Assembly (NCBI RefSeq): GCF_945952365.1
Contig: NZ_CAMFHX010000003.1
Coordinates: 62,001 to 126,000 of the forward strand
From: an uncultured Cetobacterium sp.
GTDB taxonomy: Bacteria; Fusobacteriota; Fusobacteriia; Fusobacteriales; Fusobacteriaceae
Reading direction: 5' to 3'
Length of the DNA: 64,000 nucleotides
The position numbers and the translations under genes were made by a program. This document shows, piece by piece, positions 52,301 to 54,928 of the stretch (its first letter is position 1; each line of letters begins with the position of its first letter). The notes below the pieces were generated by a model that saw only the letters and a program-made list of their open reading frames with translations, searched no databases and was not told where the DNA came from.

Positions 52301-53086
52301 CTATTTGAATTTTAAATCCAACTCTCTAAAGTTATCTTCTAACCCTTTTCCATTAGAAAACTCTTTTTTTATTTTCTTTATAAACGTTCCCATCTCATCT
52401 GCACTTCCAACAAGTCTGTTAAAAATTCCAAGATATTCAGTTATAATAGGATTATCTACATCATATGGATATCTCATCAGATGATCTATCTCACTCCAAG
52501 CCTCTTCAAACACTGTTCTAACCTGTATCTCTACAAGAACTTCATCCTGTTTTGTAACTGGAACACCAATTAGATAATGAATAGATCTGTATCCATGATC
52601 TCTCACTATGATTTCACAGTCTAAATCTTGAATTGTATTTTTCAAGTCTTGGATATTGTAGTCTCCTCTTCTAATATTGATTTGAGGAGTCTCTTTTGTA
52701 TCCCAAAGTTTCGTAATCTCTCCATGAATTCCACGCCAGTCATCTTTAAATAGATGTAGCACACGAATACCTATAAGGTCAGTGATAATCTCTTTATAGT
52801 TCTCAGCATTTATTCCACGGTCAGCATATTTACGACCTTTTCTTATAATCTTTTCTACAAGGTGAGTTGCTTTTTTTACCCTTCTTCTCACCGAGTGAAC
52901 TCCTACACTATCAATTAGTTTCGAAACTATATGCTCGGCTTCTTTCTCTAAATAAGGTACCAGCTTTAGATAATCTGCATAAATCTTCATAAGTTCATCC
53001 CAATCTAAACCTGTAGACTCAAAATACTCCTCAGTTATTGAAAATATTTTGAAGAACTCATCCTTGTTTATATTACCATTCAACAT
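52301..53086 (-). CDS. Small (p)ppGpp synthetase (RelA/SpoT synthetase domain only)
   Basis: Transfers pyrophosphate from ATP to GDP/GTP. Motifs: DLIGIRVLHLFKDDW, RDHGYRSIHYLIGVP (substrate Tyr) and VEIQVRTVFEEAWSEIDHL (catalytic Glu). There is no HD hydrolase, TGS or ACT domain, so it is a stand-alone synthetase of 261 residues. I start at ATG 53086, with AAGAGGTG 9 bases upstream; the open frame runs to 53158 but that would overlap the preceding gene. It lies 19 bases after the stop of the frameshifted SIR2-like gene, likely in one operon. Confidence 0.88.
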   Translation of the reverse strand: MLNGNINKDEFFKIFSITEEYFESTGLDWDELMKIYADYLKLVPYLEKEAEHIVSKLIDSVGVHSVRRRVKKATHLVEKIIRKGRKYADRGINAENYKEIITDLIGIRVLHLFKDDWRGIHGEITKLWDTKETPQINIRRGDYNIQDLKNTIQDLDCEIIVRDHGYRSIHYLIGVPVTKQDEVLVEIQVRTVFEEAWSEIDHLMRYPYDVDNPIITEYLGIFNRLVGSADEMGTFIKKIKKEFSNGKGLEDNFRELDLKFK

Positions 53087-53105: not shown

Positions 53106-54113
53106 CTATTTTCTAGGTATCTTCTCCAGTGAAATTTCACAAGTTTTTCTGTAAGCAACTACCTCTGTCTCGTTTAATTCTCTCGCTTCTATAGGAGAAG
53201 TAGTAACTATCGTTTCTTTTATATTAAAGTCATTTCCTTTAATAATATGAACTCTTTGTATAGATATCTTGTCCCCTTCGATAAATTGAACCTTATCTAA
53301 GTCACATCTGAAGTTTATCCAGCTTTGTAGCACTGGTGTCTTATCTATTGTATTCAGAAGTGCTAAAGAGTATAATGAATTTTCCTCTTGAAGTAATCTC
53401 TCTTTTTTAGCATCTCCTAATTCTAAAACCTCTTTTTCTAACAAATCTAATTTCATAATTTCGATTCTGTTTTCAAAAGATACTTTCCCTGTTAATAGCT
53501 CTCCTTTTAATTCAATTAAATGTCCAACAAAAATCTCTTTTAAAAGTTTTATATTAAACAGGAATCTTTTTACATTATTACTTTTTAATATCTTATAGTA
53601 ATAGTTATTCTGAACTGTATTAAAAGATCCATCCTCTTTTAAGTCTATCTCTAAACCTAATTTAAACTCTCTATTTTTTAGTTCTAAATATTTTTTTCTA
53701 TTTATTTCAACGATTCTACTGTTACAATCTTTTAATTGTAACTCGTCAATTTTTAAATCGGTAACTCCAAAAGTTTTTATTAGATTTTGATTTTTCATAT
53801 CCTTTATAGTTGAAAATTCAATTGGCAACTTATCCAATTTTAAAGAGCTATACCTTATCTCTAAAGCACTCTCTATCAATTTAAAATCTTCACTTTTAAC
53901 CTCTAACACCTCTGGCTCTCTTGTTATAACATCTGATACTGATACTATAGGCAGCTCTACAACTTCCGAAGTTTCTTCTACAACTTCCTCTACAGTTTCT
54001 AAAGTAGGTTCTGAAATCTCTTCTGAAACTTCAATCTCCTCTTCAATTACCTCTACCTCTACTATCTCATCACATGCTACTGCTTCAGAGTCCTCTGAAA
54101 TTACCGAAAGAGC
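53106..54113 (-). CDS. C-terminal half of SIR2-like protein, reached by -1 frameshift
   Basis: A continuous frame of 335 codons, -1 relative to the SIR2-like ORF, entered at the A AAA AAG site (54119-54113). It begins with a strongly acidic linker of about 65 residues (VEVEVIEEEIEVSEEI; VEEVVEETSEVVELP) and continues into an unrecognised globular domain (KSEDFKLIESALEIRYSSL to ISLEKIPRK). No ATG, GTG or TTG with an SD lies near its beginning; the first candidate, GTG 53909, is inside and would discard the linker. A frame this long and coding-like must be translated, most simply as a 607-residue fusion. If the A run was miscounted in sequencing, it is one ordinary gene. Confidence 0.7.
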   Translation of the reverse strand, partial: ALSVISEDSEAVACDEIVEVEVIEEEIEVSEEISEPTLETVEEVVEETSEVVELPIVSVSDVITREPEVLEVKSEDFKLIESALEIRYSSLKLDKLPIEFSTIKDMKNQNLIKTFGVTDLKIDELQLKDCNSRIVEINRKKYLELKNREFKLGLEIDLKEDGSFNTVQNNYYYKILKSNNVKRFLFNIKLLKEIFVGHLIELKGELLTGKVSFENRIEIMKLDLLEKEVLELGDAKKERLLQEENSLYSLALLNTIDKTPVLQSWINFRCDLDKVQFIEGDKISIQRVHIIKGNDFNIKETIVTTSPIEARELNETEVVAYRKTCEISLEKIPRK

Positions 54114-54134
54114 TTTTTTCCAAAATATGCCTCT
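54084..54134 (-). promoter_or_regulatory. Programmed -1 ribosomal frameshift signal
   Basis: Read on the minus strand: SD-like AGAGG (54134-54130), 10 bases, slippery A AAA AAG in the correct phase (codons GGA AAA AAG, 54121-54113), zero-frame stop TAA three codons later (54103-54101), and a hairpin TTCAGA-GGAC-TCTGAA (54099-54084) 13 bases after the heptamer. The heptamer and 10-base SD spacing are the same as in E. coli dnaX. Confidence 0.65.
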
Positions 54135-54928
54135 TGTAATTCAGACTCTTCTAGCTCCTCTGAGCAAAGATAATCCTTTAGCTCCTTGAAGAACTCATCC
54201 TCACTATGAGGTAATAACTTAATTCCTAAGTCATTCAATCTTTCAATCGTTTTTGTTTTTAAAACGTTTGAATTACTTACTGCATAAATAATATCTCTTT
54301 TCTCTACTCCAGATAATATCGATTCTAACATATCAATAAAATCTACATTATTTAAATCTAATCCTAAAATTAGCGTCGGATAATTTTTTATATCCTCTCT
54401 CATGTTATTAAAGAATTTTTTATAGAAATCTAAAACATTTAACTTTCTATAATCTTGAATAGAAACAAATATTTTTTCATGCCTATTTACATCACCTAAA
54501 ACCTTGTAATGCTTAATCTCTCCATTTGTCGTTGGACATATATTTTCATCTGTCGGTAATATTTTTACTACCTTACTTGAATTTATATCATCTAAAATTA
54601 TATCGTAATCTGTTGAAAAAACAGCATTTAATTTATTACTTTCAGAAAAAACATTTAGTAACTCTGAAGTTTCTCTGTTTGTTTCATACAAATTTTTGAT
54701 TTTTCTCAACAATGAACTTCTACTGCTAATAACTCCATCTAAGTAGATTTGACTAACTTGGAATAAAGAGTTTTCATCTCTTATATAACCTTTTATACTT
54801 TCTTTCATATCTTTCATTAACAGTCTTGCTAACTCTCTTCTTGTTGGATATCCAGCTTGTTTAACCAAGAAGTCTCCTAAGAAAAGATTTATTTTATCTG
54901 TATCATTAAATTTATTGAAAAAACTCAT
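54101..54928 (-). CDS. SIR2-like domain protein (zero-frame product)
   Basis: Residues 1-275 look like a divergent SIR2 (NAD-binding) domain: INLFLGDFLVKQAGYPTRRE at the place of the Gly-Ala-Gly loop, NAVFSTDYDIILDD at the place of the T-N-Y-D motif and YKVLGDVNRHEKIFVSIQDY at the place of the catalytic HG-D motif, with the His apparently replaced by Leu. NAD hydrolysis is therefore doubtful. ATG 54928 follows AGAGGTG. The frame ends three codons after the slippery site; without frameshifting it yields a 275-residue protein, with it a 607-residue one. Next downstream is a (p)ppGpp synthetase gene. Confidence 0.72.
   Translation of the reverse strand: MSFFNKFNDTDKINLFLGDFLVKQAGYPTRRELARLLMKDMKESIKGYIRDENSLFQVSQIYLDGVISSRSSLLRKIKNLYETNRETSELLNVFSESNKLNAVFSTDYDIILDDINSSKVVKILPTDENICPTTNGEIKHYKVLGDVNRHEKIFVSIQDYRKLNVLDFYKKFFNNMREDIKNYPTLILGLDLNNVDFIDMLESILSGVEKRDIIYAVSNSNVLKTKTIERLNDLGIKLLPHSEDEFFKELKDYLCSEELEESELQEAYFGKKLFR

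Follow-up and report, generated by a model that had tools for sequence, protein, structure and literature searches.

The analyzed window comprises 64,000 nucleotides of a contig from an uncultured Cetobacterium sp. with a genome of about 2.5 Mb. On the minus strand of the window, two overlapping reading frames meet at an A-rich heptamer, and a gene for a RelA/SpoT-domain protein adjoins them downstream (Table 1). A preliminary description of this region had reported that the frames meet at A_AAA_AAG in the correct phase, with AGAGG exactly 10 bases upstream, and that the second frame is open for 335 codons and acidic at its start. It had further predicted products of 275 and 607 residues. Coordinates, phase, distance and the length of the second frame were found again, and the product sizes were derived anew.

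Table 1. Features of the frameshift locus (positions in the window; fusion and stem features are predicted)
Feature	Position	Strand	Remarks
Short-product ORF, zero frame, 275 aa, SIR2-like (PF13289)	54104..54928	-	stop TAA 54103-54101
-1 frame continuation, 335 codons	53106..54113	-	acidic linker, then ~255-aa domain; stop TAG 53108-53106
Slippery heptamer A_AAA_AAG	54113..54119	-	X_XXY_YYZ phase of zero frame
SD-like AGAGG	54130..54134	-	ends 10 nt before heptamer
Long-range stem, 5' arm TCGGTAATTTCAGAGG	54092..54107	-	5 nt after heptamer; contains zero-frame CGG TAA
Long-range stem, 3' arm CTTTTGGAGTTACCGA	53758..53773	-	codons for FGVTD of C-terminal domain
RelA/SpoT-domain gene, 261 aa, small alarmone synthetase type	52301..53086	-	19 nt past TAG of long product
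Fusion junction			around GKKALSVISEDSEA; C-terminus of short product GKKLFR

The zero frame starts with the ATG at 54928, which is preceded by AGAGAGGTG, and ends three codons after the heptamer. The -1 frame is already open before the heptamer and continues to its TAG, and about the first 70 of its 335 codons past the shift point encode an acidic stretch. Together with 272 residues from the zero frame, this results in the predicted fusion of 607 amino acids.

The exact 21-mer around the heptamer occurs a single time in the genome. In-frame A_AAA_AAG was observed 11 times in the genes of the window, compared to 11.2 occurrences expected from codon use, and the scarcity of the heptamer was therefore dropped as evidence. 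Because codon use alone accounts for the number of heptamers, the argument is based on conservation. It is the place of the heptamer and its conservation, not its mere presence, that go beyond chance.

For the analysis of conservation, 61 genomes of the family were searched and the gene was found in 52 of them; the counts given for the genus refer to the 10 genomes with a readable junction. All 10 have an A run with G directly behind it, a stop of the zero frame after three more codons and an open -1 frame. An A-run slip site with a zero-frame stop at most four codons on and an open -1 frame was also found in six other genera, namely g13 (10 genomes), g14 (3), g4, g5 (2), g7 (3) and g10 (1 of two genomes). 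The run lengths of these relatives range from A6 to A9, with A5 in g5. Both halves of the gene are conserved, and the pN/pS of the -1 half is between 0.11 and 0.26, which indicates purifying selection. The programmed -1 frameshift proposed in the preliminary description is thus strongly supported by the conservation of the slip site, the -1 relation of the frames and the nearby stop of the zero frame, and by the selection on the -1 half. A one-base error in the A run, which had been named there as an alternative, is suggested by the homopolymer location only. The same arrangement is present in independently sequenced species and genera, so that a sequencing error can be excluded, and a decayed gene would not show purifying selection in its second half; this explanation was given practically no weight. 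It had also been stated that the idea would fail if all homologues were single-frame and lacked the heptamer, which is contradicted by the conserved frameshifted homologues.

Single continuous ORFs were found in five lineages (g11, g12, g2, four g7 genomes and G041), and a tree of the first half requires five changes between the shifted and the single-ORF state. In G041 (L043) the single ORF contains a run of A10. The loss of one A would lead to a short product ending in LSR, so that the frames have exchanged roles, as in dnaX; the long-range stem is still there. The single-ORF copies of g12 (L021, L062, L064, L066) carry a run of A8 at the end of the SIR2-like domain, where a -1 shift would meet a stop a few codons on. 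This could be due to chance in AT-rich DNA.

Instead of a fusion, the gene could yield two separate proteins, the short SIR2-like product and a C-terminal one whose translation begins by reinitiation within the -1 frame. A possible start is the GTG at 53909, which belongs to this frame. The absence of a start with an SD in the second frame, noted already in the preliminary description, holds in that no conserved one was seen in the linker. In addition, right from the shift point the linker is acidic and in frame, and the two halves form one continuous protein in 15 relatives. Reinitiation was considered very improbable on these grounds.

Two of the 43 tRNAs of the draft assembly are tRNA-Lys, both with the anticodon UUU, and no other Lys anticodon was found in it. 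A_AAA_AAG is the shift site of E. coli dnaX, where tRNA-Lys(UUU) is the sole Lys tRNA (PMC5009743). The dnaX gene of the window genome itself is a single ORF. Among 20 invariant Lys columns of the eight genus members of equal length, Lys 271 is the sole column in which all codons are AAG. GAGG was identified at position -10 in nine of the 10 genus members and is missing in L036. L007 has lost two codons nearby, yet its GAGG is still located 10 nt upstream.

Downstream of the heptamer, a 6-bp hairpin had been described as the third part of a dnaX-type signal. The hairpin (TTCAGA-GGAC-TCTGAA) is present and begins 13 nt after the heptamer. As a stimulator it was rejected, because the genus does not keep it and shows no significant local folding past the heptamer (z ~0). 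Its 5' half falls inside a longer element: TCGGTAATTTCAGAGG pairs with CTTTTGGAGTTACCGA, 318 nt further on, at 16 of 16 positions (G-U counted). Pairing at the homologous place was found in all 10 genus members and in both genomes of the sister genus g10, with energies of -17 to -24 kcal/mol in these 12 genomes. The distance between the arms ranges from about 136 to 883 nt, owing to the variable length of the acidic linker. In each of the 10 genus members, all of the 60 control arms were weaker, whereas 13% (G020) and 0% of the control arms reached this strength in the two g10 genomes. The mean pair probability of the stem was 0.81-0.99 in unconstrained partition-function folds of up to 960 nt.

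The covariation score of the long stem was reached by 1 of 500 shuffles, the percentage of paired positions by 2 of 500 and the number of doubly changed pairs by 47 of 500, and every sliding control was lower in covariation. The compensatory changes include A-U to U-A and C-G to U-A, and six of the 16 pairs never change. The covariation is moderate, as the arms vary little. The rare codon CGG (0.3% of Arg codons) is kept in the 5' arm in 10 of 10 genus members and the rare ACC (3.6% of Thr codons) in the 3' arm in 12 of 12 genomes; the homologous Thr codon is ACT, ACA or ACG in genera without the long stem. For the genus, the long-range stem is the better supported candidate for a putative stimulator compared to the local hairpin. 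A search of Rfam gave no match of note, and promoter and terminator scans revealed no excess over shuffles.

A different element was found in g13, g5 and two g7 genomes, where a strong local stem lies 5-8 nt past the slip site. Its 5' arm is GGTA(A/G).. or similar and surrounds the zero-frame stop. Changes on both sides were seen between lineages in five of the eight pairs, and the covariation score was reached in none of 500 shuffles. These arms were chosen by hand from folds, which results in a bias toward pairing. In g5 (L044, L072) a very stable local stem (GTAGAAGAAGA..TCTTCTTCTAC) accompanies the non-canonical slip sequence CAA_AAA_CAG. The two g8 copies (L020, L069) retain the -1 relation and the startless acidic linker without any slippery run. 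In L069 a hairpin (GGUGAUGCUCC..GGAGUAUGCC) ends at the first-frame stop codon and is followed by a second hairpin. Inspection of g8 at the first-frame stop revealed no codon for -1 or +2 re-pairing, and bypassing or another mechanism remains possible. Owing to g8 and the slip sequence of g5, the mechanism is not uniform.

The same two products would also arise from transcriptional slippage, in which the RNA polymerase adds one A, so that a fraction of the transcripts carry the fusion as a single frame. Runs suited to it are present among the relatives, namely A9 in g14, g4 and two g13 genomes and A10 in the single ORF of G041. The run is A6 in the window and likewise in nine of the 10 genus members, compared to runs of about 9 on which slippage has been described in bacteria (PMC5009743). 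Moreover, the conserved AAG, the SD at 10 nt and the covarying stems at a spacer of 5-8 nt are features of ribosomal frameshifting. Slippage, also raised in the preliminary description, was therefore regarded as unlikely for the A6 run, but possible in the relatives with A9-A10.

Taken together, programmed -1 ribosomal frameshifting is the favored reading, with a probability of roughly 0.8 in our estimate, and in the genus the internal SD and the long helix are its putative stimulators. At A_AAA_AAG some ribosomes would continue and terminate three codons on, releasing the short protein of 275 aa. Others would slip one base back, with both tRNA-Lys(UUU) re-pairing with AAA, and produce the 607-aa protein consisting of the SIR2-like domain, the acidic linker and the C-terminal domain. 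In the genus, this slip may be promoted by the SD 10 nt upstream and by the 16-bp helix, which starts 5 nt downstream and would pair with the FGVTD codons across a loop of several hundred nt. In other genera, longer A runs may serve instead, or the short local stem, whose 5' arm is similar and surrounds the zero-frame stop. The slip site, the frame relation and the arms are established at the level of sequence comparison. That both products are made, the efficiency of the shift and the action of the helix as a stimulator are inferred, as no expression, ribosome profiling or mass-spectrometry data were available. The helix would remain intact until the leading ribosome meets the 3' arm, so that frameshifting could depend on ribosome spacing or on the lead of transcription over translation.

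The signal shares with E. coli dnaX the heptamer A_AAA_AAG, an SD about 10 nt upstream, pairing that begins about 5 nt after the heptamer and tRNA-Lys(UUU) as the sole Lys tRNA. The designation as dnaX-type is hence appropriate for the heptamer and the SD, but not for the local hairpin, since the genus shows no significant local fold 5-6 nt downstream. Furthermore, it is the zero frame that encodes the short product, which is the reverse of E. coli dnaX, the partner strand of the stem lies 318 nt away and the protein is unrelated. In Thermus, dnaX is expressed by transcriptional slippage (PMC5009743). The relatives with A9-A10 are similar to it in that two length forms would come from an A run, whereas the gene described here has A6 with ribosomal stimulators.

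Pairing of the sequence beside a shift site with a distant element is also known from the plant viruses BYDV and RCNMV, over about 4 kb, and from the distant-loop (ALIL) pseudoknots of IS elements, over 44-104 nt (PMC5009743). These cases join the loops of stem-loops, whereas the present gene, a cellular one of bacteria, has a simple helix, and the distance spanned varies from 136 to 883 nt between species. On balance, this appears to be a bacterial cellular gene with a long-range helix as stimulator, which related genera may have exchanged for local stems, A-run slippage or, in one genus that lacks a slippery run, an unidentified mechanism, with both products kept; this wider interpretation is held with less confidence than the frameshift itself.

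A search of the available literature found no paper on the present SIR2-like frameshift case, and SIR2 is unmentioned in the text of the GeneTack survey, whose database could still hold the cluster. To our knowledge, conserved frameshifts in cellular bacterial genes are few beyond transposons, prfB and dnaX. We know of shift sites joined by a helix to a sequence hundreds of bases on only from viruses otherwise. A stimulator acting over such a distance in a cellular gene of a bacterium, if true, would apparently be new. It raises a testable question, because translating ribosomes and incomplete transcripts must interfere with the helix. As the frameshift is family-wide and kept while the stimulators change, the family offers a natural series for testing the evolution of such signals.

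The first half of the protein matches PF13289 (SIR2_2) with 37.1 bits, compared to the Pfam gathering cut-off of 24.5, and is homologous to the SIR2-like domain of ThsA (PDB 6lhx, E 2.4e-10). The SIR2-like label of the preliminary description is therefore right with respect to the domain, but the catalytic His of ThsA is lost: L, F, M, N or Y is found at its position in 50 of 50 family copies. At the position of the catalytic Asn, the window protein has Asp and the residue varies among the other copies; the GAG motif is altered as well. An identity as NADase or Thoeris effector (ThsA) was set aside because the His is absent from all copies, and the domain is probably non-catalytic and not an NADase, which is inferred without activity data. 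ThsA, the Thoeris effector, has a C-terminal SLOG domain and the partner ThsB. The protein described here shares the homology of the SIR2-like domain with ThsA and the SIR2_2 NAD hydrolases and differs from ThsA, besides these changes, in its conserved chromosomal neighborhood and apparently also in its C-terminal domain. No match to the C-terminal half was found in Pfam, NCBIfam or the PDB, nor any copy of it in the phylum outside the family. AlphaFold models of both halves, with three sequences as input, reached a pLDDT of 40.5 and 42.6 and were unusable.

The RelA/SpoT-domain gene adjoins downstream in most genera sampled, where a phospholipase D-type gene is also nearby. In the window, the encoded protein has no other domains, and its own SD lies just past the stop of the long product. 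Ribosomes that have not shifted stop before the end of the upstream gene, and frameshifting may therefore also tune the translation of the alarmone synthetase; such coupling is possible, although weakly inferred. The SIR2-like domain might act as a non-catalytic scaffold or nucleotide-binding domain, and complexes could assemble via the part common to both products, with the short form setting the number of C-terminal domains; these inferences are weak as well. That the two length forms have a regulatory role connected with alarmone synthesis is a tentative inference, which rests weakly on domain anatomy and linkage. In Cetobacterium and its relatives, the findings draw attention to an uncharacterized SIR2-like protein that is probably non-catalytic and whose gene is linked to that of an alarmone synthetase. 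A second PF13289 SIR2_2 protein with a stronger match is encoded in the same genome (L105; G000:C5:24400-24795; open frame of 911 aa) and is perhaps a defence protein.
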